The notes below the pieces were generated by a model, which saw nothing but the letters and a program-made list of their open reading frames with translations, did no database searches and was not told where the DNA came from. 64,000 nt of DNA from contig NZ_CP007287.1 in the NCBI RefSeq assembly GCF_000737865.1, forward strand, positions 213,453 to 277,452, given 5' to 3'. Of the stretch, positions 4,264-34,452 are shown piece after piece; positions within the stretch are counted from its first letter, which is position 1; the number at the start of each line of letters is the position of its first letter. Both the position numbers and the translations under genes were made by a program. This DNA comes from Bifidobacterium coryneforme (lineage in GTDB: Bacteria > Actinomycetota > Actinomycetes > Actinomycetales > Bifidobacteriaceae).

Positions 4264-7200
4264 TTACTCGTGTGAAGTATTGGTGGTTGTGGGTGGTACG
4301 CGTCGTTGTCGGTTGGCGTCGGATGTTGCGATGCCGAGCATGCCGGCGGTGATGAGGAGGATGATGCCTGCGCCTCCGGCGTTGGGCAGGCTGCCGGTGT
4401 GCCGGTAGGTGTAGGTGTTGCTGGTGTCGTCGGGCTGGTCCTGTCCGGCGAGGGCCCATTGGACGCGTACGGGCATGGTTCCGGGGGCGTGGGCGGTGGT
4501 TGTGGCCTGCCAGGTGCCCGCGCCGGTCTGCCTGAGGGGGAGTGTGTCGTTGTCGATGGTGAGGCCGGCCGGTGTGGGTTGTGGGGGGATGGTGGCCGCG
4601 CGCGGCCCTGGCACCGGGTTGGTGTCGCCGTGTCCTGCCTGTCCGTTGGTGTTGTCTCCCCAGGCCTGGGTGTCGCCGTTGGTGTCGATGGCGATGGTGG
4701 TGTCGCCGCCGCTGGCGGTGAGGGTGGTGTTCAGGCCGGCTATGACGGTGGGTGTGCCGGGGGTTCCGGTGTTGTGGCCGAGCTGGCCGCTGGTGTTGTC
4801 TCCCCATGCCCAGGTGCGGTGGTCCTGTCCGGTGGCGACGCTGTGGTTGCGTCCGGTGGAGACGTGGGTGAACCGGTACGTGTCGGCCGTGCCCGCCGTC
4901 CATATGCGCGCGGGTGTGGCGGTGTCGGTGCCGTCGGCGAGCCTGCCCCAGGCCCAGAGTCGTCCCTGCCGGTCGATGGCGAGCGTGTGGTCGCCTCCGG
5001 CGCTGGCCTGGACGTAGCCTGCGGGCTGCTGCGGGTCGGCTGCGGCTGCGGGTGTGCCGGTGGGGTCGTGGCCGAGCTGGCCGTGGGTGTTGTCTCCCCA
5101 CGTGTACAGGTTGCCGTCCGATCCGATCGCCGCGGCGTGCGTGTCGCCCGCCGTGATCTGCTCGTACCGGAACGCGGGGGGTGTCCCGTCGGGGATGCGT
5201 ACGGGCAGGGGCCGGCTGCTGCTGGCGGTGCGGCCGGTGTCGCCGAGCCCGCCGGGCAGGCTGCCCCACGCGTACAGGTTGTCGTCGGAGCCGAGGGCCA
5301 TGGTGTAGCCGTCACCGGCTGCGGCCCGTATCCAGGTGAACCCGGTGTCGGTGCCGTCGGGGCGGGCGGCCTTGACGGGTCTGGTGTGCTGGCTGGTGGT
5401 GCCGTCGCCGAGCTGGCCCTGGGTGTTGTCTCCCCAGGTGTAGAGCTGCCCGTCGCTGCCGACGGCGGCGCTGTGGTTGCGTCCCGCCGCGGCCTGCACC
5501 CAGGTGAATCCGTCACCGGTGCCGTCGGGCTTGGCGACCCGGGTTGGGGTGGTGCGTCGGGTGGTGGTGCCGTCGCCGAGTTGGCCTTGGGTGTTGTCTC
5601 CCCAGGCGTACAGGCCGCCGTCGGATCCGATGCCGAGGCTGGTGGTGCCGCCGGTGTCGATGGAGGCGAGGCGGATGTCGGGTGCGGCGGGTGCGGTGAG
5701 GGTGACGGTGTCCTTGCCGTATTCGCTGCCGTGGTCCGGGCTCAGGGTCCACCTGCCGGTCCGGTGCCAGCGGGCCGTCACGGTCAGGTCATGCTCCAGA
5801 GGCCGGGTGAAGTCGTAGGCGACATCCCCGTCGAACCATCCGTCGAACGTCCACCCGTTTTCGGACGGGTCGGCGGGCCTCCTGGTGGGCTCGCCCGCGG
5901 GGACCTGCTGCGCATCGGGGGCATGGCCGTGTTGGGTGGTGAAGGTGAGGGTGGCCGTGTCGCCGGTGTACATGAACCGCAGGCTGGTGTCCTCGTCCCG
6001 TGCCTGCCCGGTGGCGGACCGGATGGTCAGGGGCACGGTCTCGGGCCGGTGCCTGGGGGAGGCGGCGTGCCACCCGTCCGCCCGGCGCCGCACCTCTCCC
6101 GCGCTCGGCTTGGCGCCGAACAGGACCCCGGTGACGGGGGAACTCACAGGCCGCCACACCATGGTCGGGTCCGGGTGGGCTGTGGTGGACGTGGTGCCGT
6201 CGCCGAGCTGACCGGCACTGTTGGTACCGACCGCATACACGTCTCCGTCCGAGCCGACGGCCAGCGTAATGTCTGTGCCCGCGACGGCACCGGTGTATGC
6301 GAACCCCGAGGGTGCGCCCTTGGGGTTGGGCATACGGGCAGGGGCCACGCCGTCGCTGGTGCCGAGCTGGCCGTACTGGTTGCCGCCCCACGCCCAGGCC
6401 CCGGAGCCGGTGATGGCGGTGGAGTGGGTGCGTCCGGCGCTGACGCCGGTGGCGCCGGACGGGCCGGGGACCGGGCCCGGCCTGCCCGCGGGCTCGGCGC
6501 CGGTGGGGGTGCGGCCTAGCTGGCCGTTCTCGTTGTGCCCCCACGTGTAGACGGTGCCGTCCCGGGCGATGCCCATGCTGTGGTCGGCCCCGGCGCTGAG
6601 GGCCGTGAACCGCTGGGTGGTGTCCGCGGGGGCGGGCTTGTAGCCGGCATGGCCGAGCAGGTCATCGTCGTTTCCGGCGGATTTGCTGCCGCCCCAGGTC
6701 CAGGCGGTCCCGTTCGCGTCCAGGCCGATGGAGTGCCTGGGGCCCGCGCTGACGGAGGCGAAGGCTGCCTCGGGCACACCCACACCCGTAGGCGTCGGTG
6801 TGGAATAGGAGGAAGAACCCAGCTGCTTGTATGTGTCGTATCCCCAGGTCCAGATGTTGCCGTCCCGGTCCAGGGCCATGCTGTGGTCGGCCCCGGCGCT
6901 GACGGCGATGAACGTCATGCCGGCGGGCGTGTCTGCCTTGCCGGGCCTGTTGGCGGGGTTGCTGCTTGTGCTGCGTCCGAGTTGCCGGGAGCGGTTGTTT
7001 CCCCAGGTCCAGATGTTGCCGTCCCGGTCCAGGGCCATGGAGTGGCCGTCCCGGTCCAGGGCCATGGAGTGGCTGTCCCCGGCGGACACCTGGACGAACT
7101 TCACCCCCGCGGGTGCGGCGGCCATGATTGGTGCGGTCCGGTTTGTGGTGGTGCCGTCGCCGAGCTGGCCGTCCTTATTGTTGCCCCATGCGTATAGGTT

Positions 7201-9486
7201 GCCGTCGCTGCCGACGGCGAGGGAGTGGGACTGTCCGGCGGATACCTGGGCGAACCGTACCCGGGAGGTGGGGGTGTCGAGGTGCACGTCGGTGCCGCCC
7301 CGCGAGGGCCCCTGGGCCGGGTCGGCCTTCCACCGGCCCCAGCGTGCGGTCAGGACCGTGTCCCCGCTTACGGGCTTGGTGAAGTCGTAGGGCTTGTCGC
7401 CCTGGAACCATCCGTTGAAGGTCCACCCGTCGTCCGCCGTCGGGTCGTCGGGCCGTCGGGCGGTGTCGCCGACGATGACCTGCTGGGACGGGACGGGGGA
7501 GCCGTGTTCCGTTTTGAAGGACACGGTGGCGGTGTCGCCCGTGTAGGTGAACCGCTGGCTGGTGCCGTCGGGCTGGGGGACGCCCTTGTATGTGGATTGG
7601 ATGGTGAGGGTGACGGTGCCGAGGCCGTGCCTGGGCGAGGTGGCGTGCCACCTGTCGGACCTTCGGTAGGGGCCGCCGATGTTGCGGGCCTCACCGAACA
7701 GGACCTTCGTGACCTCCGTGACGACGGGTCTCAACGTCATGACAGGCAAGGGGCTGCGTTCGATGCTGGGGGCGGTGTTGCTGGCGATGCTGCTCCTGCC
7801 GTTGCCGAGTTGGCCGCTCGCGTTGTCTCCGCACGCGTATGTTTCACCGTCCGAACCGAGGAACACCGTGTGCTGATTGCTGGCTGCGATGCTGGTGTAG
7901 CGGAAGTCTGTGGGGGCCCCGGCGGGGTTTGCGACCCGGGCTGGGGTGGCCGTGATCTCGCCTGTTCCGGTTCCGAGCTGGCCGTACGGGTTCTTTCCCC
8001 ACGCCCATGTGCCGGTGTCGGTGATGGCGAAGGAAGTGTATTCTGTGACTGATCCAGTGGTAGCGGCATCGACTTGGGTGGCTCCGGTCAGGCCGGGGAC
8101 CCGGCCAGGCTTGTCGGCGGGGTTGGCGTTGTCGGGGGTGCGTCCCAGCTGTCCGCTTTCGTTTTTGCCCCAGGTCCAGACGGTCCCGTCCCGCGCGATG
8201 GCGATGAGATGAAAACCCCACCTGTCGACGCTGTAGGCCTTGAACCTGACATCGGTATCGACGGTGGTGGGTTTGTAGGTGGAATGCCAGGTCCAGATTC
8301 TGCCGTCCGTGTCGAGGGCCGTATATCCGTTTGTCCACCAATTTAATGCGGTGTAGATGGCGGTGAAGACGGTCCCTCCGTCCATATCCAGCTTGTGGGG
8401 TGTCTCTGCGTCTATGTATCCCCAAGTCCAAGCCTGTCCATTGCTGTCGAGGGCCATGGAACTCTCATCGCCTGCGGAGACGGCGGTGAACTTCACGCCC
8501 TCCGGCACTACGGCCAGACCGGGTTGGGGATTAGATAGGAGATCGGTGGTGGGGCGGCCGAGAGTGCCGCCGAAGTTGTTGCCCCAGGTCCAGATTCTGC
8601 CGTCCCGGTCCAGGGCCACGCAGTGGTTATATCCGGCGGACACCTGGGTGAACTTCACACCTTCCGGCATGGCGACTATCCGTGGAGCCACCGAATCACC
8701 ACGGATAGTCTGTCCGAGCTGCCCGGAACCATTGGACCCCCATGCGTATGCGTTGCCGTCGCTGCCCAAGGCCAGGGAGAAGTTGCGGCCTGCGGATACC
8801 TGGCTGAAGCGTACCTGGTCTGTGGGGGTGTCGATTTTGACGTTGGTGCCGCCCTGCCAGGGCCCTGTGTCGGTGCTGGTGGTCCATTTGCCCCATTTGG
8901 CGGTGAGGGTCAGGTCCTGGGTGACGGGCTTGTTGAAGTCGTAGGCGAGGTCGCCTTGGAACCATCCGTTGAAGGTCCATCCTGGCCTGGTGGGGTCGTC
9001 GTGTGGCCATGTGGCGGTCTTGCCGTCGGGGATGGTCTGGCCTGCCGGCATGCCCTGGGTGTCGGGCTGTGAGGTGAAGGTGACCGTGTGGCTGCCGGTC
9101 CTGGCCTGCGGTCCGGGGGCCTGCGCTCCGGCGGGTGCTGGTGTGGTGGTCTGCCTGGTGGTGAGCGGGTTGGGTGTGGCCAGGGTGGTGGGTGTCGCGG
9201 TGGTTGTCGTGGGCTGCGTCGCTGCTGCCGGGGACTGCGGTGTGGCCGAGGGTGACGGGGTCGCGGCCGGTGTGGTGGTTCCTGTGGGTGTGGTCAGGCC
9301 GTCATCCGCGGCTGCGGGTTGACCCCCCCCCCCGTTGATTTGGGAGTAGGGGGCGGCGGTCGTCTGGAGGGTGTCGGCGGCCTGAGCGCCCGCGGCCAGG
9401 CCGCCGCCCATGATGGACAGGGCCGCCAGGACCGCGACGGCAGGGCGCGCGAAACGACGACCATGGAACGTGTTCCAAGTGTGCAT
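4264..9486 (-). CDS. Giant wall-anchored RCC1-repeat/InlB-repeat surface protein A, with poly-G tract
   Basis: 1740 residues. A signal peptide ends at about AQA/AD (residue 37), followed by a Pro/Thr/Ala-rich stalk to about 130. Then come three modules: InlB-like (Listeria-Bacteroides) repeats with GWTFNGWF at about 134-198, 650-715 and 1172-1247, each followed by RCC1 repeats (AWGxNxxGQLG, SAGxxHSMALD) at about 212-580, 735-1105 and 1250-1625. Each RCC1 block fits one seven-bladed propeller. IPT-like spacers precede the second and third InlB repeats. The tail is LPNAGG (1700), a hydrophobic segment and an RQRR charge cluster, as in sortase substrates. Codons 51-55 lie in an 11-G run. It is probably a secreted adhesin or ligand-binding protein; the ligand is unknown. 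Confidence 0.85.
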   Translation of the reverse strand: MHTWNTFHGRRFARPAVAVLAALSIMGGGLAAGAQAADTLQTTAAPYSQINGGGGQPAAADDGLTTPTGTTTPAATPSPSATPQSPAAATQPTTTTATPTTLATPNPLTTRQTTTPAPAGAQAPGPQARTGSHTVTFTSQPDTQGMPAGQTIPDGKTATWPHDDPTRPGWTFNGWFQGDLAYDFNKPVTQDLTLTAKWGKWTTSTDTGPWQGGTNVKIDTPTDQVRFSQVSAGRNFSLALGSDGNAYAWGSNGSGQLGQTIRGDSVAPRIVAMPEGVKFTQVSAGYNHCVALDRDGRIWTWGNNFGGTLGRPTTDLLSNPQPGLAVVPEGVKFTAVSAGDESSMALDSNGQAWTWGYIDAETPHKLDMDGGTVFTAIYTALNWWTNGYTALDTDGRIWTWHSTYKPTTVDTDVRFKAYSVDRWGFHLIAIARDGTVWTWGKNESGQLGRTPDNANPADKPGRVPGLTGATQVDAATTGSVTEYTSFAITDTGTWAWGKNPYGQLGTGTGEITATPARVANPAGAPTDFRYTSIAASNQHTVFLGSDGETYACGDNASGQLGNGRSSIASNTAPSIERSPLPVMTLRPVVTEVTKVLFGEARNIGGPYRRSDRWHATSPRHGLGTVTLTIQSTYKGVPQPDGTSQRFTYTGDTATVSFKTEHGSPVPSQQVIVGDTARRPDDPTADDGWTFNGWFQGDKPYDFTKPVSGDTVLTARWGRWKADPAQGPSRGGTDVHLDTPTSRVRFAQVSAGQSHSLAVGSDGNLYAWGNNKDGQLGDGTTTNRTAPIMAAAPAGVKFVQVSAGDSHSMALDRDGHSMALDRDGNIWTWGNNRSRQLGRSTSSNPANRPGKADTPAGMTFIAVSAGADHSMALDRDGNIWTWGYDTYKQLGSSSYSTPTPTGVGVPEAAFASVSAGPRHSIGLDANGTAWTWGGSKSAGNDDDLLGHAGYKPAPADTTQRFTALSAGADHSMGIARDGTVYTWGHNENGQLGRTPTGAEPAGRPGPVPGPSGATGVSAGRTHSTAITGSGAWAWGGNQYGQLGTSDGVAPARMPNPKGAPSGFAYTGAVAGTDITLAVGSDGDVYAVGTNSAGQLGDGTTSTTAHPDPTMVWRPVSSPVTGVLFGAKPSAGEVRRRADGWHAASPRHRPETVPLTIRSATGQARDEDTSLRFMYTGDTATLTFTTQHGHAPDAQQVPAGEPTRRPADPSENGWTFDGWFDGDVAYDFTRPLEHDLTVTARWHRTGRWTLSPDHGSEYGKDTVTLTAPAAPDIRLASIDTGGTTSLGIGSDGGLYAWGDNTQGQLGDGTTTRRTTPTRVAKPDGTGDGFTWVQAAAGRNHSAAVGSDGQLYTWGDNTQGQLGDGTTSQHTRPVKAARPDGTDTGFTWIRAAAGDGYTMALGSDDNLYAWGSLPGGLGDTGRTASSSRPLPVRIPDGTPPAFRYEQITAGDTHAAAIGSDGNLYTWGDNTHGQLGHDPTGTPAAAADPQQPAGYVQASAGGDHTLAIDRQGRLWAWGRLADGTDTATPARIWTAGTADTYRFTHVSTGRNHSVATGQDHRTWAWGDNTSGQLGHNTGTPGTPTVIAGLNTTLTASGGDTTIAIDTNGDTQAWGDNTNGQAGHGDTNPVPGPRAATIPPQPTPAGLTIDNDTLPLRQTGAGTWQATTTAHAPGTMPVRVQWALAGQDQPDDTSNTYTYRHTGSLPNAGGAGIILLITAGMLGIATSDANRQRRVPPTTTNTSHE
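7021..7074 (-). repeat. 27-bp tandem duplication inside an RCC1 repeat
   Basis: Two consecutive 27-base units (7021-7047 and 7048-7074) differ only in the last base. They duplicate nine residues (the HSMALDRDG segment) within one RCC1 blade of protein A, keeping the frame. This looks recent and would insert an extra loop into a blade. Confidence 0.85.
9323..9333 (-). repeat. Homopolymer tract of 11 G in the coding strand of RCC1 gene A
   Basis: Eleven consecutive C on the + strand (11 G in the mRNA) encode the run GGGG at residues 52-55, just after the signal peptide. With 11 G the 1740-residue frame is open. With 12 G the frame meets a TGA (read gga TGA) and with 10 G a TGA (read gcc TGA), both within about 12 codons. 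This is the classical layout of a slipped-strand contingency site. Confidence 0.75.
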
Positions 9487-9530
9487 ACGACAAACCTCAC
9501 CAACTCATATCCCCGCCCGGATGACAGCCG

Positions 9531-9554
9531 CCGAATCGCCCCCATGACGAAACC
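9531..9554 (-). promoter_or_regulatory. Conserved 5' hairpin element, copy A
   Basis: Read on the minus strand, a TTTCGTCATGGGGGCGATTC element about 45 bases before the start of RCC1 gene A resembles elements before genes B (15231-15254) and C (34508-34530). The shared plan is a TCG-C-A arm, four to five G, then a GCGA arm. Pairing in this copy is weaker than in B and C. The rest of 9487-9761 shows no gene; it must hold the promoter of gene A, which I cannot place with confidence. Confidence 0.45.
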
Positions 9555-9761
9555 GGAACAGCCCGGACCGAGGATCACCCCTTCAAAAGTAAACTTACTT
9601 GACCCTACCATCCCCCAGTCCCCACACGCAACACGGACCATGGGCTGACACAACCAGGCAAGTCAAAACAAGCGAACGTGGGCGCTCACGACGCGGAACA
9701 GCCCGGCCAAAGGTATACACGCTCAGCTGCGAGTCGTGGGTCGGTTTGATGTGGAGGGGGT

Positions 9762-9802
9762 GGAGGCGGTCCGTTGTTGGGGTGTGGGGGCGGACCGCCT
9801 CC
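9762..9802 (-). terminator. Terminator hairpin after the second RCC1 gene
   Basis: GGAGGCGGTCCG (9762-9773) pairs perfectly over 12 bases with CGGACCGCCTCC (9791-9802), downstream of the gene ending at 9845. Flanking sequence up to and past the stop codon matches that after RCC1 gene A, showing that the genes and their 3' ends were duplicated together. Confidence 0.65.
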
Positions 9803-9844
9803 GGTGGCCAGGGGGTTGGGACCCCTTTTGGTGTGGCCTCTTAC

Positions 9845-12800
9845 TCATGTGAAGTACTGGTGGTGTTTGGGGATGCGCCGCTGCCGGTTGGCTGTGGTGG
9901 CGGCAAGGATAAGGGTGCCTGCGATGATCAGGAGGATGATGCCTGTGCCTCCGGCATTGGGCAGGGTGAAGATGTGCAGATAGGTGTACGTGTTGGAGGT
10001 GTCATCGGGCTGGGCCTGTCCGGCGAGGGTCCATCTGACGCGCACGGGCACAGCCCCGGGGTCGTGGGCCGTGGTGGTCGCCTCCCAGGTGTTCGGTCCG
10101 GTCCGGTGCAGGGGGAGCGTGGTGGAGTCGATGGTCAGGTCGGTGGGTGTTGGGTGAGAGGGAATGGCGGAGGTGCATGGCGTGGGGGTTTCGCCGGTGT
10201 CTCCGTGTCCGCCCTGCCCGTTGGAGTTGTCGCCCCATGCCTGGGTGTTGCCGTTGGTGTCGATGGCGATGGTGGTGTCGGCCATGCTGGCGGTGACGGT
10301 GGTATTCAGACCGGGTATGGTCGTGGGCTGTGTTGGGGTGCTGGTGGCGTGCCCGAGCTGTCCATTGGTGTTGTCGCCCCAGGTCCAGGTGCGGTGGTCT
10401 TCTCCGGTGGCGGTGTAGTGGGCGCGCCCGGTGGACGTGTGGGTGAACCGGTACGTATCGTTCGTGCCTGCGGGCCAAATGCGTGCGGGTGTTGCAGTGT
10501 CGGTGCCGTCGGCGAGATCGCCCCAGACCCAGAGGCGTCCCCGCAGGTCGATGGCCATAGTGTGGTCGCCTGCGGCGCTGGCCTGAACGTAGCCTACGGG
10601 CTGCTGCGGGTCGTCCCAGGCGGCCACGGTGGGTGTGGCTGCGGCGGCAGGTACTCCGGTGTCGGCGTGGCCGAGCTGCCCATGTGTGTTCGATCCCCAG
10701 GTATACAGGTTCTCATCCGACCCGATCGCCGTAGCATGCCTGTCACCGGCAGCGATTTTCTCGAAGCGGAACGTGGGTGGCACGCCTTGAGGCAGGGCGA
10801 CCATGACGGGTCGGGTGCTGGCGGTGGTGCCGTTGGTGTCACCGAGTCCACCGGGCAGACTGCCCCAGATATACAGGTTGTCGTCTGACCCGATCGCCAA
10901 GGTGTATCCGTCGCCGGCTGCGACCCGAATCCAGGTGAACCCGTTCCCGGCAGGGCGTATGACCTTGACGGGTGTGGTGCGTTGGGTGTTGGTGCCGTCT
11001 CCGAGTTGCCCGCAGGTGTTGTCTCCCCATGCGTACAAGTTGCCGTCGGATCCGACGGCGGCGCTGTGGGTGCGTCCGGCCGTGGCCTGCACCCAGAAGA
11101 ACCCGGTGTCGGTGCCGTCTGGGCGGGGAATCAGGGTGGGTGTGGTGCGTCGGATGCGGGTTCCGTCGCCGAGCTGGCCTTGGGTGTTGTCTCCCCATGC
11201 GTACAAGTTGCCGTCGGATCCGACGCCCAGGGAGGACGATCCGCCCGTGTCCACGGATGCCAGACGGAGGCCGGGTGCTGCGGGTGCGGTCAGGGTAAGC
11301 GTGTCACCACCGTGTTCACTGCCGTGGTCCGGGCTCAGGACCCACCGGCCGGTGCGGTGCCAGCGTCCGGTCACGGTCAGGTCGTGCTCCAGGGGCGCGG
11401 CGAAATCGTAGGCCACGTCCCCGTTGAACCACCCGTCGAAGGTCCACCCCTCCTCGGACGGGTCCGCGGGGCGTTGGGTGGGCTCTCCCGCGGCAACCTG
11501 CTGCGCGGGTGTGGGGGCGCCGTGATCGGACACGAAGCTCAGAGTAACGATGTTGCCCGTGAAAGTGAACGTCAGACCAGTGTCCTCGGTTCTGACTGGG
11601 GCTGAGCGAATGCCGGTGGAGGACTTGACGGTCAGCGAGACGGTCTCAGGCCTGTGCCGGGGCGAGACGGCAAGCCACCCGCTCGCGGTGCGCTCCACTT
11701 TACCCATATTCGGTTTGGTGCCGAACAGAACACTCGTGATTGAGGCGCCCACTGGATGCCAGACCATCGTCGGTTTATTTGCCCCTGCCAGGCCAACAGT
11801 CGCTTTATTGATGGTGTTGTCTCCGAGCTGCCCGCTGGCGTTACTTCCGAACGCATATGCTTCGCCGTTGGAACCGATGGTCAGTGTGTGCTCGCCCGTC
11901 ATGCTGGCGACGGCGTTGGTATACACGAACCCCGCGGGTGTCCCCTCTGGTGCCGGTATGCGTTCGGGGGTGTCGACACCGCTGCTGGATCCGTTGTTGG
12001 TACCGGTGCCCAGCTGGCCCTGGGCGTTGAGGCCCCATCCCCAAACGTCGGTGCCGGTGATGGCGATAGAGTACCTGCGGCCGGCCCTGATGCCGGTTGC
12101 TCCGGTGAGGCCGGGGACCCGTCCGGGCCGGTTGGCGGGTGTGGTGGTGGTTGGGGATCGGCCCAGCTGCCTGGTCGACCAGGTTCCCCAAGACTGAACG
12201 GTGCCGTCCTGAGCAACTGCCAGGGAGTGGTAGTAGCCGGCGCTGACGGTTGTGAATCGTAGGTCGGTATCTACCGGGGCGAGATCGGTGCCGCCGGCGT
12301 GACCGAGTACGGTGTCGGTGCTGATGTAGCTGTTGTCGATGCCGCCACCCCAGGACCATGCGGTTCCGTCTGCAGATAGGCCTATGGAGTGCGTGAAGCC
12401 GGCACTGACCATAGTGAATGCGGTTCCCCTCGATGGCCTTATTTTCTCAGGTGTTGCATCGTTGGTACCGCTGGTGTCGCGCCCCAGCTGTTTGTAGGCG
12501 TTATTTCCCCAGGTCCAGATGTTGCCATCCTGGTCCAAGGCTGCAGAGTGTGTCCGCCCGGCGCTGACAGCGATGAAACCTACGTTCTTGGGTGCGGCGA
12601 CCAGGCCTGGTCGTCTTGCAGGGGTTGCCGCGGTGGGAGTGCGGCCCAGCTGTCCGTCCGAGTCGAATCCCCAGGTCCAGATTCTGCCTTCGCTGTCGAG
12701 AGCCATGACGTGATAAAAACCGGCGGATACCTGAATGATTTTCGCTCCCTCAGGCGTGAAGACCGGTATCGGGGCAGGCAGGTCGTTTTTTTCATATTCG

Positions 12801-15181
12801 GCTACTTGCGAGTAGTGGTTGTAACCCCATCCGTATACGTTGCCGTCGCTGCCGACGGCCAGAGAGCAGTTCCTGCCTGCAGTTATTTGGGCGTATCGTA
12901 CCTCGGAGGTGCTTCGGCTAAGGTGCACTTCGGTGCCGCCTTGCCATGGTCCTTGTGTGGGTGTGGTGGTCCATTGTGCCCATTTGGCGGTGAGGGTGAG
13001 GTCGTGGGTGACGGGTTGGGAGAAGTCGTAGGCGGTGTCTGCCTGGAACCAGCCGTTGAAGGTCCATCCGTCGTGGGTGGGTGGGTCGTCGGGTCGTGGG
13101 GCGGTGTCGCCTTTGGCGACGGTCTGGGGTGGTGGGGGTGTGCCGTGGTCGGTCTGGTAGGTGATGGTGGCGGTGTCGCCGGTGTAGGTGAAGCGCTGGC
13201 TGGTGTCGTCGGGTTGGGGTGTGCCGTTGCGGGTGTGTCTGATGGTGAGGGTGGTGGTGCCGATGGGGTGTCTGGGCGAGGTGGTGTGCCATCCGTCGGC
13301 TTCGCGGTGGGGTGTGGCAAGGTTGTGCGACTGGCCGAAGAGGACATCGGTGGGTTGCAGGTGGGTGGGCTGCCAGGTGGTGGTGGGCCGGTTGGCGGGG
13401 TTCCGGGTGTTGTCGCCGAGCTGGCCGGTGGTGTTGTCGCCGCAGGCGTAGGTGCGGCCGTCGTTGCCGAGGAGGAGGGTGTGGCCCGGGGTGCCGGTGG
13501 CGGGTGCGGCGGCGGTGTAGCGGAAGCCGGGTGCGGCGCCGCCGGGTGCGGGGGTGCGTGCGGGTGCGGTGTTGTCGTCGGTGGTGTTGTCGCCGAGCTG
13601 GCCGTGGCTGTTGAGGCCCCATGCCCATGCGGTGTCGGGGGTGATGGCGGTGGAGACGCCGGTGCCGGCGTTGACGCGGGTGGCGCCGGCGGGTCCGGGG
13701 ACCTGTCCGGGCCGGTTGGCGGGGTTGGCGGTGTCGGGGGTGCGGCCGAGCTGGCCGTGGTCGTTGCCGCCCCAGGTCCAGACGGTGCCGTCGCGGGCGA
13801 TGGCCATGGCGTGGTCGTTGCCGCTGCTGACGGCGGTGAAGCGCTGGGTGGTGTCGACGCGGGCGGGGGTGTCCCGGGGGCCGTCGTGGCCGACGGGGCC
13901 GGCGGCGTCGCCCCAGGTCCATACCCCGCCGTCGGTGTCGAGGGCCATGGAGTGGTGGGATCCGGCGCTGACGGCGGTGAAGGCGGTGCCCGCTGGCGTG
14001 GGGACTCTGCCGGGGGTGGCGCCGTCGCCGGAGCGGCCGAGGTTGGCGTCGCCCCAGGTCCATACCCCGCCGTCGGTGTCGAGGGCCATGGAGTGGTGGG
14101 ATCCGGCGCTGACGGCGGCGAACCTCACGCCCGCGGGCGTGGCGGCGGGAGCGGGCCGGGTGGAGGTGCCGCCGGTGGTGCCGCGGCCGAGCTGGCCGGT
14201 GGTGTTGTCGCCCCAGGTCCAGACGGTGCCGTCGCGGGCGATGGCGATGGCGTGGGAGGCGCCGGCGGCGACGGCGGTGAATCCGACCCCGTCGGGCATG
14301 GCGGCCATGGCCGGGGCGGCGCGGTGGGCTCCCGCGTCGTCGCCGGCGCCGAGCTGGCCGGTGGTGTTGCCGCCCCAGGTGTAGGCCTTGCCGTCGCTGC
14401 CGAGCGCGACGGAGAACCCGGCCCCGGCGGCGACCTGGGCGAACCTCACCCCGTCGGCCGCGTCGGAGATCCTGACGTCGGTGCCGCCCTGCCAGGGGCC
14501 CCGGTCGGGGGTCACGGACCGGCGTCCCCACCGGGCGGTCAGCGTCACGTCGCCGGTCACGGGCGCGGAGAAGTCGTACGCGGCGTCGCCCAGGAACCAC
14601 CCGTTGAACGTCCACCCCGGCCGGGACGGGTCCTCACGCGGCCAGGATGCCGTGCCGCCGTCCGGCACCGACTGCGCCCCCGGCACGCCCGTGCTGTCTG
14701 CCTCCGACGAGAACGACACCGTATGCACCACACCCACCGCCGTCTGCACGGAAGGGGCGTCCGCGGCGTGGGACGACAAGGGGCTCGACGTCGCCAACCC
14801 TGCCGGACCCGAAGGCAATACCACACGGGACCGGCCGGCAGCCGACAAAGAGGACACACCCGAAACAGTGGGGCCACCCGACGAGGACACGCCGGAAGAC
14901 AGGGAGCCACCGGACGAAGACGACGAGGCATCGGAAGAAGAGGACGACGAGGCATCGGGCGACGGGGAAGGGACCCGATCCGGACCATCCACCTGGATGG
15001 GGCGAGCCTGGCCGCCGTCGGCAGGGGCCAGGACCCCGGGTGCCGCCCCAGCGGACACCGGGGAATCAACCGCCTGCGCAATGGACACCAGGCCGGCACT
15101 CAAGACCGTCATCACCGACACGACGGCAACCACCGGGCGAGCCAAACGACGACGGCTCTGGAACACGTTCCACATACGCAT
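9845..15181 (-). CDS. Giant wall-anchored RCC1-repeat/InlB-repeat surface protein B
   Basis: 1778 residues, paralogous to protein A. A signal peptide ends near IAQA/VD (residue 37), followed by a Ser-rich stalk (about 75-140) including long serine runs. InlB-like repeats lie near 150-220, 670-735 and 1207-1280, with RCC1 blocks at about 233-594, 747-1130 and 1287-1660, about seven blades each. The third module (LSPDHGSEHGGDTLTLTAPA onward) is the closest to that of protein A. The C-terminus is LPNAGG at 1740, a membrane segment and NRQRR. It has no long G tract, so unlike A it should be expressed constantly. The coding end is read in a different frame from A relative to the shared 3' sequence. 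Likely exported and sortase-linked; ligand unknown. Confidence 0.85.
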   Translation of the reverse strand: MRMWNVFQSRRRLARPVVAVVSVMTVLSAGLVSIAQAVDSPVSAGAAPGVLAPADGGQARPIQVDGPDRVPSPSPDASSSSSSDASSSSSGGSLSSGVSSSGGPTVSGVSSLSAAGRSRVVLPSGPAGLATSSPLSSHAADAPSVQTAVGVVHTVSFSSEADSTGVPGAQSVPDGGTASWPREDPSRPGWTFNGWFLGDAAYDFSAPVTGDVTLTARWGRRSVTPDRGPWQGGTDVRISDAADGVRFAQVAAGAGFSVALGSDGKAYTWGGNTTGQLGAGDDAGAHRAAPAMAAMPDGVGFTAVAAGASHAIAIARDGTVWTWGDNTTGQLGRGTTGGTSTRPAPAATPAGVRFAAVSAGSHHSMALDTDGGVWTWGDANLGRSGDGATPGRVPTPAGTAFTAVSAGSHHSMALDTDGGVWTWGDAAGPVGHDGPRDTPARVDTTQRFTAVSSGNDHAMAIARDGTVWTWGGNDHGQLGRTPDTANPANRPGQVPGPAGATRVNAGTGVSTAITPDTAWAWGLNSHGQLGDNTTDDNTAPARTPAPGGAAPGFRYTAAAPATGTPGHTLLLGNDGRTYACGDNTTGQLGDNTRNPANRPTTTWQPTHLQPTDVLFGQSHNLATPHREADGWHTTSPRHPIGTTTLTIRHTRNGTPQPDDTSQRFTYTGDTATITYQTDHGTPPPPQTVAKGDTAPRPDDPPTHDGWTFNGWFQADTAYDFSQPVTHDLTLTAKWAQWTTTPTQGPWQGGTEVHLSRSTSEVRYAQITAGRNCSLAVGSDGNVYGWGYNHYSQVAEYEKNDLPAPIPVFTPEGAKIIQVSAGFYHVMALDSEGRIWTWGFDSDGQLGRTPTAATPARRPGLVAAPKNVGFIAVSAGRTHSAALDQDGNIWTWGNNAYKQLGRDTSGTNDATPEKIRPSRGTAFTMVSAGFTHSIGLSADGTAWSWGGGIDNSYISTDTVLGHAGGTDLAPVDTDLRFTTVSAGYYHSLAVAQDGTVQSWGTWSTRQLGRSPTTTTPANRPGRVPGLTGATGIRAGRRYSIAITGTDVWGWGLNAQGQLGTGTNNGSSSGVDTPERIPAPEGTPAGFVYTNAVASMTGEHTLTIGSNGEAYAFGSNASGQLGDNTINKATVGLAGANKPTMVWHPVGASITSVLFGTKPNMGKVERTASGWLAVSPRHRPETVSLTVKSSTGIRSAPVRTEDTGLTFTFTGNIVTLSFVSDHGAPTPAQQVAAGEPTQRPADPSEEGWTFDGWFNGDVAYDFAAPLEHDLTVTGRWHRTGRWVLSPDHGSEHGGDTLTLTAPAAPGLRLASVDTGGSSSLGVGSDGNLYAWGDNTQGQLGDGTRIRRTTPTLIPRPDGTDTGFFWVQATAGRTHSAAVGSDGNLYAWGDNTCGQLGDGTNTQRTTPVKVIRPAGNGFTWIRVAAGDGYTLAIGSDDNLYIWGSLPGGLGDTNGTTASTRPVMVALPQGVPPTFRFEKIAAGDRHATAIGSDENLYTWGSNTHGQLGHADTGVPAAAATPTVAAWDDPQQPVGYVQASAAGDHTMAIDLRGRLWVWGDLADGTDTATPARIWPAGTNDTYRFTHTSTGRAHYTATGEDHRTWTWGDNTNGQLGHATSTPTQPTTIPGLNTTVTASMADTTIAIDTNGNTQAWGDNSNGQGGHGDTGETPTPCTSAIPSHPTPTDLTIDSTTLPLHRTGPNTWEATTTAHDPGAVPVRVRWTLAGQAQPDDTSNTYTYLHIFTLPNAGGTGIILLIIAGTLILAATTANRQRRIPKHHQYFT
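13904..14118 (-). repeat. Pair of identical 74-bp segments inside RCC1 gene B
   Basis: The segments 13904-13977 and 14045-14118 are identical and offset by 141 bases (47 codons, one RCC1 blade). They encode HSMALDTDGGVWTWGD twice in neighbouring blades. Recombination between them would add or remove one blade without changing the frame. Confidence 0.8.
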
Positions 15182-27510: not shown

Positions 27511-30500
27511 CTACTCCCGGGGCCTCTTCAACTGTCGTTGCCTTGCCGCGGCAGCCGCCATGGTCAGCAACCCTACGACCAGCAGGAGGACGATGCCGAT
27601 GCCGCCTGCGTTTGGGAGCCTGGCAGTGTGCTGGTAGGTGTAGGTGTTGGAGGTGTCGTCGGGTTGGGGGTACCCGGCGATGGTCCACTGGATGCGGGCG
27701 GTGGTCGATCCGGGTTCATGGGCAGGTGTGGTGATCTGCCAGGTGCCGTCGGGTTGTTGACGGATGTTGGTGCTGTCCTGCCCGTCGAAGGAGATTCGGG
27801 TGGGTACTCCGTCGGCTGGAATGGTGATGGGGGTTGCTTCGGTGAGGTCGGCGGATCCGGCTCTTGTGCCACCCTGGTGGTTGGTGTTCTGCCCGAATCC
27901 ATAGGCCGTCCCGCTGGTTCCGATGGCCAGGCTGTGGTCACCTGCGGCGCTGATGGCGCGGGCGGTGAGTGCCTGATTGGGGGTATCAGGGTTCTTGGCC
28001 TGTGCGGGTTGCTGTGAAGCGCGCCCGTCGGCGAGCTGGCCGTGGGTGTTGTCGCCCCATCCGTAGACCACCTGATTGGTTCCGATGGCCAGGCTGTGGC
28101 TTCCCCCTGCCGCCAGCTGGGTGTAGGCGAACCCTTCGGGTGCGCCCTGGGGGAGCGGTACCTGGACGGGTACGGTCTGGTCTCCGCTCAAGGCAGGGGT
28201 GGTCTGTCCGCTGTTGTTGCGGCCCCAGGCCCAGGCGTGTCCGTCCTCGTCCAAGGCCAGGGCATGATAGGCACCTGCGCTGATCTGGGTGAAGACGGGG
28301 GCCTTGTCGGCTCCTACGGGTGTGGCAATAGGCCCGGGCAATAGTCCGTTTCCGCTGATTGCGCTGCCTTGACCGAGCCTGCCGTTGGAGTTGGAACCCC
28401 AACTGTATACCTGCCCGTCATTACCGAGTGCCAGGGCGAATCCGTCTCCAGCGCTGATGCGGGTGTACCGGAATTCGGGTGCGGTTCCGGTTGGGGTGGC
28501 GACTCGGACGGGCAGGGCGGAGGAGGTGCTGGTGCCGTCGCCGAGGCCGTTGGTGTTGGATCCCCAGGCGTAGGCGTTGCCATCAGAGCCGAGTGCCATG
28601 AGCTGCTGACCGCCGACTGCGACCTGCGTGTACCGGAATTCGGGTGCGGTTCCGGTTGGGGTGGCGACTCGGACGGGCAGGGCGGAGGAGGTGCTGGTGC
28701 CGTCGCCGAGGCCGTTGGTGTTGGATCCCCAGGCGTAGGCGTTGCCATCAGAGCCCAGGCCGATGCCCATGGATTCACCGGCCTGGACCTGGGTCCAGGT
28801 GAATCCGTTGCCTGCTCCGGTCGGAGTGGCGACTCTTACGGGGGTGGACCGGTCGGTGCGGGTCCCGTCGCCGAGCTGACCACTATCGTTGGATCCCCAG
28901 GCGTAGGCGTTGCCGTCTGAGCCGATGCCCAGTGAGTTTCGACTTCCTGCGCTGACCTGGGCCAGGCGCATGCCGCCTGGTGCGGGAGGGGTTAGGGTGA
29001 CGGTCTCGCCGCCGGAGTCAATGCCGTGGTCCGGACTCAGCGTCCAGTGGCCGGGCTGGTGCCAGTGGGCGGTAAGGGTCATGTCCCGGTCGATGGGCTG
29101 GGTGAAGTCGTAAGCCGTATCTCCGTCAAACCATCCGTCGAACACATGGTCCGCTCGTGTGGGGTCGGTGGCAGGCCGTGCCGTGATCCCATCCTCGTCC
29201 ACTGTGGCATCGGGAGGGACGGGTGTCCCTCCGCCGGTGTCGTAGGTGACGGTGTACCGGCTCGGGGCATAGGTGTAGTCCAGGTCGGTGTCGGGTTGTG
29301 GTTTGCCGTTCAGACTCCATCGGATAGTCAGGGGTACCCGACCGGGCCGGTGCTTCCTCGCTGGTGCAGTGACCTGCCAGGAATCGTCGGTTTGTGGGCT
29401 GGGGTTTCCGCCAGGTCGAGCCCCGAATGCGGTCGAGGTGACCTGCAAGGTGGGGAAAGTGGTCTTTCCGGGTGTGGATCGGGGCGTGTCGGTTCCTTCG
29501 CCGAGCTGGCCGTGGGTGTTGTCACCCCAGGTATGCAGGGTACCTGCCGAGTCGATGCCAAGGGTGTGGCTCATTCCCACGGCGGCCCGCTTCCATGTGA
29601 AGTTCGCCCGACCCGGGGTGGTGATGGCGACTGGCACGGTCCTGTCGGTATTGGTGCCGTCGCCGATCTGGCTGTTCGTATTGCTTCCCCAGGTGTAGAG
29701 AGCTCCAGTGGAGATGATGGCCTGCGAGGTCTGACCCCCGGCGGAGACTCTCAAGATAGTGGCACCGTTGGGCAGATCGGACTTGGTAGGCAGGGGGTTG
29801 TCGGCCTCTGCAGGGTATTTGCCGATTTGGCCGTGCCGGCCGGAGCCGAATGCGTACACGGCGGTGGTGTTGGCGGTGGTGTCGGTTGCGATGGCAAGCG
29901 TGTGGTTCTTGCCTGCGGCCAGATACAACCAGGTGAAGCTTGGGGGTGCACCGGTCGGGGTGCGTACAGGGGTGGGGGTGGCCGTGGCGGTGCCGGTCTT
30001 ATTGTCTCCCAGCTGGCCGTAGGTGTCGTCGCCCCAGGCATACAGGGTGCCGTTGTTGGCTATGGCGAGGGAGTGATTGCCACCGGCCTGTATCTGGGTG
30101 TAGACCAGCCCGGGCGGCGTGCCCTCGGGCATTGGGCGTATTGCGGGTGTGCCTGTGGCGCTGCCGGCCGCTCCGCGTCCGAGCTGGCCGTAGGTGTCGT
30201 TGCCCCAGGTCCAGACGTGCCCGGTCGTGTCCAGGGCGATGGTGTGGTCGTCGCCGGCATTGATCTGAGTGAATCGTGTATCGCCAGTGGCGGCAAGGCC
30301 GGGCGTGGAATCATCTCCGCCGACCGTTCCGCGTCCGAGCTGTCCTTCTGAGTTGTCGCCCCAGGTCCAGATTCGTCCGGTGGTGTCGAGGGCTGCCGTG
30401 TGGTTCCTGCCTGCCGTCGCCTGGGTGAAGAGCACATCTGCAGGTGCGGCTGTGCCGGTGGGGAGGGTGCGTCCGGTGTGGGTGCCGTCGCCGATTTGGC

Positions 30501-33500
30501 CGTGCGTGTTGTCGCCCCACGCGTATACCTGTCCGTCGCTGGAAACGGACACGGAATGGGAGCCGCCTGCGTTGATGCCGGCCAGGCGTGCGCCTAATGC
30601 TCCGGAGGGGGCGGTGAGGGTTATGGCCGTGCCGCCGCCGGTGGGGCCGGATGCGGGTGACCGTGACCAGGAACCGGGACGGCTCCACTTGGCCGTCACA
30701 GTGGTGTCTTCTGAGATGGGCTGGGTGAAATCGTAGGCCGCTTCGCCCTGGAACCATCCGTCGAACTGGTAGCCGGCACGGGTCGGATTCGTGTCAGGCC
30801 GGATGGCCAGTCCCCACTCATCCACGGTCTGGACGATAACCGGGTCTCCATTGCCTGGGTCGAACCTGACCTGGTGTCTCAATGGCAGATATGTATAGGG
30901 CAGGATTTCCACACCCTGGTCTCGACCTGGCCGTGACCAGGGCACCCGTAGCTCCACCTGTCCCGGCGAGTGGGCAGGAGGACGCGCAATCCAGGAACCG
31001 TCCGTCTGCCGTGTCACCACGCCCTGGGCCGGTACTCCGTCGAAGGTGACGCCGGACAGGGTCAACGGCCACGGAAACCAAACGCTGGCCGATTCGTAAG
31101 TGCTGTCTTGTTGGGTGGGGCCGCGTCCGAGCTGGCCGCCTCCGTTGTAGCCGAAACTGTAAGTGGAGCCATCGGAACCGATGATCAGCGTGTGACTATT
31201 GCTGTTGGAAGCTGCGGTCCTGCGGTAGGAGAAACCGGCGGGTGCATCCCTGGGCGCAGGTATGCGGGTGGGCACAGGCACGCCCGGACTGTCATTGCCG
31301 GTGTTGGTGGGGATGCCCAGCTGCCCTTGATGGTTGCGGCCCCAGGCCCAGGTACCTGTGGGGGTGATAGCGAAGGAAGAGCGATTGTTCGAGGCGCTGA
31401 TGTCGGTGACCCCGGACAGGTTATCGATACGCCCGGGTCTGCCGGCGGGGTGGGCGCTGTCGGGTGTGCGACCCAATTGGCCATACTCGTTGAGACCCCA
31501 GCTCAGGACGGTGCCGTCTGTGGCAATGGCCAAGGAGTAATCATCTCCTGAGCTGACGGCTGTGAACTTCAAATCACTGTTGACCGGAGCTGGGCCTGTG
31601 CCGTCGTGAAAGTCAGTACTTCCGATGCGTCCGGACCGTGCGTCTTGGTAGCCCCAGGTCCAGGCGGTCCCGTCGACGGACAGTGCTGTGGTGTGCCCGG
31701 TGCCGGCGCTGATGGCAACGAAGGTGGCTCCACGGGTCATTACCACTTTTCCCGGAGTTTTCCTTTCTTCTGCCTCGACGGCGTACCGTCCGAGCTGTTT
31801 CCAGCCGTTGTTTCCCCAGGTCCAGATGTTTCCGTCCTGGTCCAGGGCCACTGAAAATTCATAACCGGCGCTGATGGCAATGAACGATACGCCTGTCGGC
31901 ACGGAGATTATGCCAGGTTTGTTGGCTGGGTTTGCATCGTTCGGTACACGGCCGAGCTGGCCGTAAATATTGTCTCCCCATGTCCAAACTCTGCCCTCGC
32001 TGTCCAGGGCCATGGCATGACTGCTGCCTGCGGATACTTGAGTGAATTTCACGCCTTCAGGCATGGGTACCTTCACCGGAACGTTACGTAATGTCGTGGT
32101 GCCGTCGCCCAGCTCGCCGTGGGTGTTGTCGCCCCAAGCGTATATGTTCTGGTCGCTTCCCAAGCCCAATGAGAACCAACCACCTGCTACTACTTGGCTG
32201 AAGGCGATACGGCTTGGTGGGTCAAGTCGTACATCATTGCCGCCTGTCCGGGGGCCTGAAGTGGGATGGGCTGACCACTGGCTGTTCCCATATGTCCACC
32301 GGGCTTTCAGCGTGGTGGGGCCGGTAACGGGGGTGATGAAGTCGTAGGCGACGTCGCCCTGGAACCATCCGTCAAAGGTCCACCCATCCTCGGAGGGATC
32401 ACTTGGACGTTGGGCCACGTCACCGACTGCCACCTCCTGCTGGGGTATGGGGGCTCCGTGTTCGGATTGGAAAGTCACGGTGGTGGCGGTGCCGGTGTAC
32501 GTGAACTGGTGGCCGGTCTCGTCGGGTTGGGCGATGCCGTCGATGGTGGATCGGATGATGAGGTCGACGGTGCCGATGCCTTGCCTGGGGGTGGAGGTGT
32601 ACCACCCGTCAGCACGGCGGTACACTCCGGCTGCGTTGTTTCTGTCGCCGAATATGACGGTAGTGATCTCCCTGCTGGTGGGTCTCCAAACCATCACCGT
32701 CTTGAGGGAGTTTTTTGATGTGTTCTGTCCGAGCTCTCCGGAGGTTCCGTTTCCTGTACCGTAGGCGTTGCCGTCGGATCCGATTGCCAAGGTCCGGAAA
32801 TCGCTCTGGTTTGAACCATTGGCTGCGAAGCCGATGTACTTGAATCCGGCGGGTGCCCCGTCGGGAGCGACCATGCGTGTTGGTGTGGCTGAGTCGGTGG
32901 TGGTGTTTGTGCCGAGCTGTCCTTGATTATTGCGTCCCCAGGCCCAGCTCCCGGTGCCGGAGGTGGCTGCGGAATATTGGTTTCCTGCGTGAATAACGCT
33001 GATGTCGGTCAGGTCGGGGACGGGGCCTGGCTGGGTGGACGGGTTGTCTGTTGTGGGCGCGCGTCCCAGCTGGCCGTAATCATTGCTTCCCCAGGTTTGG
33101 AGGGTGCCGCCCGCATCCAAAGCCATGGAGTGATCTCCGCCGGCGCTGATATCAGTGAATTTCAGATTGGTATTGACCGCTGCGGGTGATGTGCCGGTGT
33201 GACCGAGCCAGTCCCCGCCGTTTCCCCAGGTCCAGACGGTCCCGTCAGCTGCCAGGGCCATGGAGTGGTTTCTGCCCGCGCTGATGGCTGTGAACACGGT
33301 GCCTGCGGGTAGTTGTGCCTTACCGGGTATATCTGCGGGGTTGGAACTACTGTTGGGGCGTGCAAGTAGGCTGCCCCATGAAGGTCCCCAGGTCCAAACT
33401 TCGCCGTTCTGATCCAGGGCCACGGCATGTTTTTGACCGGCGCTGATGGAGGTGAACGTCACGCCTGTCGGCATGGGGACCATGCCGGGTCTATTGGCGG

Positions 33501-34452
33501 GATTGGCGGCATCGGGTCTCCGGCCCAGTTTTCCAAAATCGGCGTCACCCCAAGTCCATACCCTACCCTGACTGTCCAGGGCCATGGAAAACTGATAGCC
33601 TGCAGATACCTGAATGAACTTCACGCCCTCGGGCATGGGGACCATTAGCGGGACCATGGAGTAGGGTATGTCAGCGATGCCGAACTCGGAGTGACGGTTG
33701 GACCCCCATACGTATACGTTCCCGTCGCTGCCCACCGCCAGGGAGTGCGAATGGCCTGATGCGACCTGAGCAAACCGATTCTGATCCGTGGGCAAATTCA
33801 CCTGGACGTCGGTGCCGCCCCTCCAGGGTCCCTCGGTCGGGCTGATGGACCATTTGCCCCATTTGGCAGTAAGAGCCGTGTCCTTCGTTACCGGCCGGGT
33901 GAAGTTGTAGGCGACGTCGCCCTGGAACCATCCGGCAAAGGTCCACCCAGGCCGGGTGGGATCGCTGAGAGGCCGGGTGGCGGTCCTTCTGTCGACGACC
34001 GTCTGGGCGGCAGGCATGCCTTGGGTGCCGGCCTCGGAGGTGAATGTAACGGTATGGCTGTCACCGGATCTGGCCGCCGGTTCACGGGATTTTGCGGTCG
34101 CCTGGTCTGAGTCCTCGCCTGACAGTGGATTGGGGGTCGCCAGCTGGGACGGTCCGGAATCGGATTGCGGGGTGGAAGTGGTTGACGATGGTGCCGGTTC
34201 AGCGGGCCGTGAGGCAGACGGTGTAGGGAGCGGTGATGAAGGCGTATCCGAGGGAGACAAGGTGGAACCCTTGCCGGGGTTCAGGGTCTGAAGACCTGTG
34301 TCTTCTCCTGTCCGGGACAGTACGGACTGGTCCGCCGACTGTGCGTCAGCCGGGTCGGAACCTGCCATCAGGCCAACCCCCATGGCGGCCAGGACGGCAA
34401 GCGCGCCTATGATCGGCCTGGCGATGTGCCTGGATACGCTGTTATTGTGCAT
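27511..34452 (-). CDS. Giant wall-anchored RCC1-repeat/InlB-repeat surface protein C (four modules)
   Basis: 2313 residues, the largest gene here. Signal peptide to about ADA/QS (residue 37), Ser/Pro/Thr-rich stalk to about 125. Four InlB-like repeats near 129-197, 654-717, 1194-1257 and 1727-1800, each followed by an RCC1 block (about 210-584, 734-1124, 1284-1660, 1817-2197) of about seven blades, so four propellers against three in A and B. IPT-like GG-T segments (TSGPRTGGNDV, ASGPTGGGTAITL) open the blocks. Ends with LPNAGG (2279), a membrane helix and a basic tail. The last module resembles the last module of A and B. Contains an exact 128-bp internal repeat. Likely a secreted, wall-linked binding protein; ligand unknown. 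Confidence 0.86.
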   Translation of the reverse strand: MHNNSVSRHIARPIIGALAVLAAMGVGLMAGSDPADAQSADQSVLSRTGEDTGLQTLNPGKGSTLSPSDTPSSPLPTPSASRPAEPAPSSTTSTPQSDSGPSQLATPNPLSGEDSDQATAKSREPAARSGDSHTVTFTSEAGTQGMPAAQTVVDRRTATRPLSDPTRPGWTFAGWFQGDVAYNFTRPVTKDTALTAKWGKWSISPTEGPWRGGTDVQVNLPTDQNRFAQVASGHSHSLAVGSDGNVYVWGSNRHSEFGIADIPYSMVPLMVPMPEGVKFIQVSAGYQFSMALDSQGRVWTWGDADFGKLGRRPDAANPANRPGMVPMPTGVTFTSISAGQKHAVALDQNGEVWTWGPSWGSLLARPNSSSNPADIPGKAQLPAGTVFTAISAGRNHSMALAADGTVWTWGNGGDWLGHTGTSPAAVNTNLKFTDISAGGDHSMALDAGGTLQTWGSNDYGQLGRAPTTDNPSTQPGPVPDLTDISVIHAGNQYSAATSGTGSWAWGRNNQGQLGTNTTTDSATPTRMVAPDGAPAGFKYIGFAANGSNQSDFRTLAIGSDGNAYGTGNGTSGELGQNTSKNSLKTVMVWRPTSREITTVIFGDRNNAAGVYRRADGWYTSTPRQGIGTVDLIIRSTIDGIAQPDETGHQFTYTGTATTVTFQSEHGAPIPQQEVAVGDVAQRPSDPSEDGWTFDGWFQGDVAYDFITPVTGPTTLKARWTYGNSQWSAHPTSGPRTGGNDVRLDPPSRIAFSQVVAGGWFSLGLGSDQNIYAWGDNTHGELGDGTTTLRNVPVKVPMPEGVKFTQVSAGSSHAMALDSEGRVWTWGDNIYGQLGRVPNDANPANKPGIISVPTGVSFIAISAGYEFSVALDQDGNIWTWGNNGWKQLGRYAVEAEERKTPGKVVMTRGATFVAISAGTGHTTALSVDGTAWTWGYQDARSGRIGSTDFHDGTGPAPVNSDLKFTAVSSGDDYSLAIATDGTVLSWGLNEYGQLGRTPDSAHPAGRPGRIDNLSGVTDISASNNRSSFAITPTGTWAWGRNHQGQLGIPTNTGNDSPGVPVPTRIPAPRDAPAGFSYRRTAASNSNSHTLIIGSDGSTYSFGYNGGGQLGRGPTQQDSTYESASVWFPWPLTLSGVTFDGVPAQGVVTRQTDGSWIARPPAHSPGQVELRVPWSRPGRDQGVEILPYTYLPLRHQVRFDPGNGDPVIVQTVDEWGLAIRPDTNPTRAGYQFDGWFQGEAAYDFTQPISEDTTVTAKWSRPGSWSRSPASGPTGGGTAITLTAPSGALGARLAGINAGGSHSVSVSSDGQVYAWGDNTHGQIGDGTHTGRTLPTGTAAPADVLFTQATAGRNHTAALDTTGRIWTWGDNSEGQLGRGTVGGDDSTPGLAATGDTRFTQINAGDDHTIALDTTGHVWTWGNDTYGQLGRGAAGSATGTPAIRPMPEGTPPGLVYTQIQAGGNHSLAIANNGTLYAWGDDTYGQLGDNKTGTATATPTPVRTPTGAPPSFTWLYLAAGKNHTLAIATDTTANTTAVYAFGSGRHGQIGKYPAEADNPLPTKSDLPNGATILRVSAGGQTSQAIISTGALYTWGSNTNSQIGDGTNTDRTVPVAITTPGRANFTWKRAAVGMSHTLGIDSAGTLHTWGDNTHGQLGEGTDTPRSTPGKTTFPTLQVTSTAFGARPGGNPSPQTDDSWQVTAPARKHRPGRVPLTIRWSLNGKPQPDTDLDYTYAPSRYTVTYDTGGGTPVPPDATVDEDGITARPATDPTRADHVFDGWFDGDTAYDFTQPIDRDMTLTAHWHQPGHWTLSPDHGIDSGGETVTLTPPAPGGMRLAQVSAGSRNSLGIGSDGNAYAWGSNDSGQLGDGTRTDRSTPVRVATPTGAGNGFTWTQVQAGESMGIGLGSDGNAYAWGSNTNGLGDGTSTSSALPVRVATPTGTAPEFRYTQVAVGGQQLMALGSDGNAYAWGSNTNGLGDGTSTSSALPVRVATPTGTAPEFRYTRISAGDGFALALGNDGQVYSWGSNSNGRLGQGSAISGNGLLPGPIATPVGADKAPVFTQISAGAYHALALDEDGHAWAWGRNNSGQTTPALSGDQTVPVQVPLPQGAPEGFAYTQLAAGGSHSLAIGTNQVVYGWGDNTHGQLADGRASQQPAQAKNPDTPNQALTARAISAAGDHSLAIGTSGTAYGFGQNTNHQGGTRAGSADLTEATPITIPADGVPTRISFDGQDSTNIRQQPDGTWQITTPAHEPGSTTARIQWTIAGYPQPDDTSNTYTYQHTARLPNAGGIGIVLLLVVGLLTMAAAAARQRQLKRPRE
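28463..28755 (-). repeat. Pair of identical 128-bp segments in RCC1 gene C
   Basis: Bases 28463-28590 and 28628-28755 are identical, offset by 165 bases (55 codons, one blade). They encode GSNTNGLGDGTSTSSALPVR and flanks twice. Identity at synonymous positions means a recent duplication or gene conversion. Confidence 0.85.

Follow-up and report, generated by a model that had tools for sequence, protein, structure and literature searches.

The window analysed here is a stretch of 64,000 nucleotides from Bifidobacterium coryneforme, positions 213453-277452 of a single-contig genome of 1,755,151 bases. Its reverse strand carries gene A, an open reading frame for a putative surface protein built of RCC1 repeats and ending in a sortase-type anchor (Table 1). 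Between the leader and the body of this protein, in the 5' coding part of the gene, the coding strand runs through 11 consecutive G, written as 11 C on the forward strand. The subject of this paper is the candidate role of that tract as a switch, through which the number of G would decide whether the protein is made.

The leader begins with MHTWNTFHGRRFARPAVAVLAALSIMGGGLAAGAQA and resembles a signal peptide; it is translated ahead of the tract, whatever the tract length. In the body, a scan against Pfam finds RCC1 (PF00415, E-value 4.9e-161) and Flg_new (PF09479, E-value 1.4e-26). The LPNAG near the C-terminus is a variant of the LPxTG sortase motif; a hydrophobic stretch comes after it, then a basic tail. 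Signal peptide and anchor were both judged by reading the sequence. With RCC1 and Flg_new repeats, a signal peptide and an anchor, gene A has the features that mark the RCC1 proteins of bee bifidobacteria.

Table 1. Gene A, its parts and its paralogues in the window (window positions)
Feature	Position	Strand	Basis
Gene A, 1740 residues, RCC1-repeat sortase-type putative surface protein	4264-9486	-	open reading frame
Gene A codons 1-51, start ATG and signal-peptide-like leader	9334..9486	-	translation
Tract of 11 G, gene A codons 52-55	9323..9333	-	sequence
TGA reached at 12 G (tract +1)	9302..9304	-	frame reading
TGA reached at 10 G (tract -1)	9294..9296	-	frame reading
Gene A body, Flg_new repeats (three stretches) and RCC1-like propeller repeats	4264..9322	-	Pfam scan
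LPNAG sortase-like motif, gene A residues 1700-1704	4375..4389	-	sequence
Tandem paralogue B, 1778 residues, without tract	9845..15181	-	sequence
Paralogue C, 2313 residues, without tract	27511..34452	-	sequence

Tract length and reading frame in one species

A first-pass annotation of the window had reported an 11-G run just after the signal peptide and an early TGA in the frames reached with 10 and 12 G. Both points hold on the coding strand of the open reading frame, but the run occupies one codon fewer than the 51-55 then given. With 10 G, translation ends at codon 64 and with 12 G at codon 62; the two wrong-frame stops lie 7 and 10 codons past the tract. Among lengths from 5 to 17 G, only 5, 8, 11, 14 and 17 keep the frame. 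No sigma-70-like promoter was found in 9250-9850. A search of the window's genome for MutS_I gave no match, while 11 of 14 control genomes match; this lack fits slippage that goes unrepaired.

The same annotation described paralogues B and C as lacking the tract. They do lack it, but two further paralogues, both outside the window, carry a tract at the same QIN-G(n) site. Paralogue D (genome position 348391) has 12 G and is OFF: its leader frame ends soon after the tract, and a frame of 1719 codons then follows. Paralogue E (416598) has 13 G and a different flank, and its frame is open, or ON. Paralogue F (410134) is 82% identical over its start and has five G only, and an RCC1 copy at 686675 has no tract.

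Tract lengths can be compared with those in a second genome of the species (G040), taken as B. indicum LMG 11587 (NZ_CP006018.1). Genes A, D and E have 11 (ON), 12 (OFF) and 13 (ON) G in the window's genome and 11 (ON), 12 (OFF) and 14 (OFF) in G040, so that E goes from ON to OFF between the strains. Matching by flanks (250-base flanks 89-100% identical) pairs 11 runs of at least 9, with lengths 11/11 (gene A), 12/12, 13/14, 12/10, 12/11, 15/10, 10/11, 10/10, 9/9, 11/14 and 11/9; seven of the 11 differ. Where stretches align at 88% identity or more, the lengths of G/C runs differ at 8 of 3592 places if the longer copy is 3-7 bases and at 6 of 9 if it is at least 9, in stretches picked for holding a long run in one genome. 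Eight of the 19 runs of the window's genome are unpaired in the stretches taken, one of them being the second copy of a ribosomal RNA (rRNA) operon. For the G040 runs at 73346, 1193424 and 1237337 no counterpart was found in the stretches taken; those at 566159 and 542565, both of 10, face runs of 5 and 4 in the window's genome.

Although OFF in both strains, gene D has a ratio of nonsynonymous to synonymous substitution rates (dN/dS) of 0.39, taken over the 1741 codons that were compared in its stop-to-stop frame. The six other family members compared range from 0.31 to 0.63, gene A standing at 0.61.

Two side observations concern these paralogues. A second tract, of 12 G (10 in G040), lies at genome position 416975 (13476-13487 of locus L064), about 227 bases before the start of E (L064 13249) and just past a G5-domain gene; E may thus have two switches. 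In G040, an 11-G tract (L114, C1:73346-73356) belongs to a decayed RCC1 fragment with a QTPRVAEQ stretch nearby, which suggests that the window's lineage formerly had the module type seen in other species.

A tract, a module and stops in both wrong frames

A protein search led to 69 loci in named Bifidobacterium genomes, taken from the best 80 of 117 matches, and many of these loci bear the tract behind the leader of RCC1 genes. Within the same set, TCGTCAGACCCC follows the tract in 38 of 48 tract genes, and the ten bases past it are near-invariant as well. Of 27 genomes, 11 contain a 22-mer taken as the switch module, TCGTCAGACCCCTCGCGTAGCT, with 71 copies altogether and up to 15 in one genome, and at least 10 G precede it in all 71 cases; six of these copies were left unfetched (four in contig C3 and one in C6 of G021, one in G020). 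Among eight further distinct copies with one or two mismatches in the fetched loci, five have no more than 5 G before them. The exact 22-mer is absent from both genomes of the window's species. Leaders that by eye resemble that of paralogue C carry 13 G (ON), 14 G (OFF) and 15 G (OFF) in loci L002, L003 and L004 of genomes G008, G002 and G020.

The module is conserved beyond the protein that it encodes. At its seven codons, 93-100% of the rows that share the residue also share the codon. At 196 conserved columns elsewhere the mean is 72.5% (standard deviation 16.5), with 15 of them reaching 95% too; of ten seven-codon windows outside the module, the highest attains 88%. Within it, GTAGCT followed by A or G and then A supplies a stop to each wrong frame, TAG to one and TAA or TGA to the other. 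The invariance of the two stop-making codons is explained by the stops themselves. That of the bases before GTAGCT could reflect gene conversion among tandem copies, which is possible.

For a census we took stretches of 12 genomes and counted tract genes with a called start, of which there were 67: 19 ON and 48 OFF. Tracts ranged from 11 to 17 G, with 40 of the 67 genes at 12 G and 43 off by the same phase. By genome, ON genes over tract genes came to 4/9 in G024, 3/12 in G014, 2/6 in G003, 3/6 in G001, 2/4 in G013, 1/2 in G017, 1/1 in G011, 2/3 in G000 and 1/3 in G040, with 0/5 in G005, 0/10 in G021 and 0/6 in G010. The three counts of zero, which stand beside three of six in G001, may reflect culture history. 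Stops within 10 codons in both wrong frames were found in 66 of the 67 genes, as against 3.1% of positions drawn at random from those genes, although the 66 are not independent, since 60 module-bearing genes share their flank by descent. Most diverged flanks retain GTAG(A/C)T(A/G)A, and at an unchanged distance (stops at 8 and 7 codons); in unrelated flanks the stops fall at 1 and 15, 13 and 5, or 10 and 4 codons.

The OFF genes are intact. All 47 that could be read to the end keep LPxxG, and their median downstream length is 1158 residues against 1154 for ON genes. Near-identical genes occur in opposite states, twice between G003 and G010 (11 G, ON; 12 G, OFF) and once in the E pair.

The census left out 49 G runs. 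Six lie before an RCC1 frame without a called start, and 43 failed the test for downstream RCC1, many of these being intergenic in G000 and G040 and some being cut by the end of a stretch. Twenty of the runs left out fall in loci L203-L239, and eight of these are module sites: the six without a called start and two before apparently broken frames. The regions were picked by tract plus TCGTCAGACCCC, and the share of all RCC1 genes that carry a tract therefore cannot be read from these counts.

A probable slipped-strand switch and its alternatives

From the sequences compared here, the tract of gene A is very probably an ON/OFF switch that works by slipped-strand replication. The sibling and strain comparisons, the intact genes at OFF lengths and the stops in both wrong frames all fit this reading, and they support the earlier proposal of a phase-variable surface protein; that proposal had singled out protein A, but the switch belongs to a clade-wide family. 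On the proposed mechanism, replication slippage would add or remove one G. At 11 G, or any length of 3k+2, the complete exported protein would be made. At other lengths the leader would be translated, the tract passed out of frame and a stop met within about 10 codons, leaving no surface protein until a reverse slip brought it back. The mechanism supposes that living cells undergo slippage at useful rates, that switching alters the cell surface, and that the cell gains by this against host, phage or competitors.

The counts of long runs and several features of the family weigh against this reading. Eight-base G words number 12, against 19.3 expected from dinucleotide shuffles, and runs of at least 10 in the genome number 18, against 37 predicted by a Markov model that uses the base steps of the window. 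Paralogues B, C and F have no tract, and so the family does not require one. Wrong-frame stops lie 9 and 2 codons past the G5 site of F, a gene without the tract; the stops in A's lineage thus need not have been selected for switching and may be older than the switch. The length variation in related genomes that the first-pass annotation had named as a check is found at sibling tracts (13/14 at E) but not at the very site in gene A, which has 11 G and is ON in both genomes. Two module sites in G024, both with 11 G, precede frames that are apparently broken. Finally, on a tree of the downstream proteins, made by a quick search and holding several long branches, there are at least 13 changes between ON and OFF, 10 of them forced by starred branches; shuffled states give a mean of 16.8, and only 3-5 of 500 shuffles fall as low as 13, from which it follows that states are partly inherited. 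The repeated changes themselves, with the near-identical pairs in opposite states, count in favour of switching.

A plain count of long runs does not set this tract apart from expectation, and the argument therefore rests on a gap at length 8, on the differences between strains and on the anatomy of the genes. In the genome, G/C runs of exactly 7 number 18, length 8 is absent, length 9 occurs once and lengths 10-15 account for another 18; three of the length-7 runs lie inside rRNA genes, and three more match those in spacing. In the window, length 6 occurs 13 times, lengths 7-10 are missing altogether, and there is a single run each of 11 and of 15. As a rule long runs are avoided; those of 10-15 form a class of their own that is maintained.

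How else might the tracts be explained? Programmed slippage during transcription or translation is the main rival, given how common 12 G is and how many genes are off by the same phase. Genes with 12 G would then still yield some full-length protein from unchanged DNA, the tract length being set for recoding. Conservation of the post-tract bases at synonymous positions would agree with this, as would a fold of those bases onto the tract. Such a hairpin, which might act in recoding or slippage, was weighed and set aside, its z-scores in four sequences (-1.58, -1.51, -0.27 and -0.41) being too weak. Yet DNA length and frame differ between orthologues that are nearly identical (13/14, and 11/12 twice), and length changes are far commoner in long runs than in short ones. 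The stops by themselves explain the invariance of the stop-making codons, and recoding has no need for stops in both wrong frames. We consider recoding improbable.

Less probable again, indeed very improbable, is a neutral, hypermutable homopolymer in a tolerant gene, with OFF copies on their way to becoming pseudogenes. Paralogues without the tract are intact, as this idea would have it, and the two G024 module sites before apparently broken frames and the decayed fragment in G040 look like such decay. OFF genes, however, are as long as ON genes and keep the sortase-like motif in every case read to the end, and OFF gene D has the low dN/dS given above. The tract, moreover, is held at the same place behind the leader, with its two-frame stops, across many paralogues and species. 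That the lengths are artefacts of sequencing or assembly, the true length being fixed and the reported ones wrong, we find scarcely credible. Homopolymer lengths are indeed prone to miscalling, and in the B. breve culture that was measured the 11 G of the annotation turned out to be the minority length, at 37% (PMC9187656). But separate assemblies from different species show tracts of 11-17 G at one and the same place, and one-base miscalls cannot create tracts, two-frame stops or a 22-base module.

Apart from the RCC1 genes, two sets of long runs deserve mention. A 15-G run at window positions 45469-45483 (10 G in G040) lies between genes for an HxlR-type regulator (45553-45891, reverse strand) and a Na+/H+ antiporter (44103-45338, reverse strand), about 130 bases before the start of the latter. 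It is a candidate length switch in a promoter or leader; no sigma-70-like site was found at the run. In locus L061, two 11-base G/C runs (2770-2780 and 9107-9117; genome positions 139769 and 146106) sit in two tandem rRNA operons, each about 600 bases before the 16S rRNA gene, and the G040 counterpart of the first has 14.

Known switches and a proposed combinatorial surface

Two papers describe the RCC1 surface proteins of bee bifidobacteria, and as far as these descriptions tell (PMC4449606, PMC3447821) protein A belongs to the same family. They report 7-24 such genes per genome, encoding Flg_new and RCC1 repeats with an LPxTG anchor, numerous and diversifying, arranged in tandem clusters whose copy number varies among strains; B. 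asteroides, B. indicum and B. coryneforme are named as honeybee bifidobacteria. The main texts of both contain no match for frameshift or phase variation (PMC4449606, PMC3447821).

G-tract switching in bifidobacteria is documented for pili. According to the main text of PMC9187656, the sortase-dependent pilus genes bbr_0113 and bbr_1889 of B. breve UCC2003 switch by an intragenic G tract, the ON form being one G below the annotated length (G10 for G11, G9 for G10) and being enriched in mice; the strain has other G tracts, intragenic or in promoter spacers. As in protein A, the tract falls between the Sec-signal and LPXTG parts of a large protein anchored in the wall (PMC9187656). The shorter ON form also has its likeness in the bee RCC1 genes, where 12 G is commonest and genes with 11 G are mostly ON. 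None of the six families that Pfam lists for protein A is a pilin family. The B. breve pilins lie in clusters with a dedicated sortase, one or two clusters per genome (PMC9187656); bee bifidobacteria have as many as 15 module copies in one genome. Slippage within a culture has been measured for B. breve (PMC9187656), whereas the putative switch of protein A is deduced from sequence comparison. The main text on B. breve makes no mention of RCC1, asteroides, coryneforme, indicum or honey (PMC9187656).

The other species named in our protein search are presumably of bee origin too. In open-licence PubMed Central we found no case of RCC1 phase variation, searching titles and the starts of abstracts, and no paper on out-of-frame stops after tracts. 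The first-pass annotation had called such switching little described in bifidobacteria; G-tract switching of a surface structure is already on record for the pili of B. breve. What is new is the size of the repertoire and the module with its stops in both frames.

Poly-G contingency genes are familiar from Campylobacter and Neisseria, in which homopolymers in 5' coding sequence switch the frames of surface factors stochastically at many loci per genome. The present case differs in its bacterium, an actinobacterial commensal, in the concentration of many switches in one protein family and in the conserved two-frame stop directly past the tract. A stop of this kind can be scanned for, as a signature that tells selected switches from accidental homopolymers. 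Automatic annotation would probably label many such genes as truncated or late-starting.

We propose, as a reading with about even prospects of being right, that the tract and two-frame stop module behind many RCC1 signal peptides give bee-gut bifidobacteria a combinatorial surface. Its commonest state, 12 G, would be OFF and one deletion from ON, and each cell would show only a few of its many propeller proteins, here in a commensal and not in a pathogen. A role of these proteins in attachment, or in evasion of phage or host defences, is a guess. If the proposal is true, a set of proteins that are mostly OFF would let these commensals diversify their surfaces clonally. Such diversity could help to account for the coexistence of strains, for escape from phage or for attachment to niches in a gut that is simple and open to experiment.

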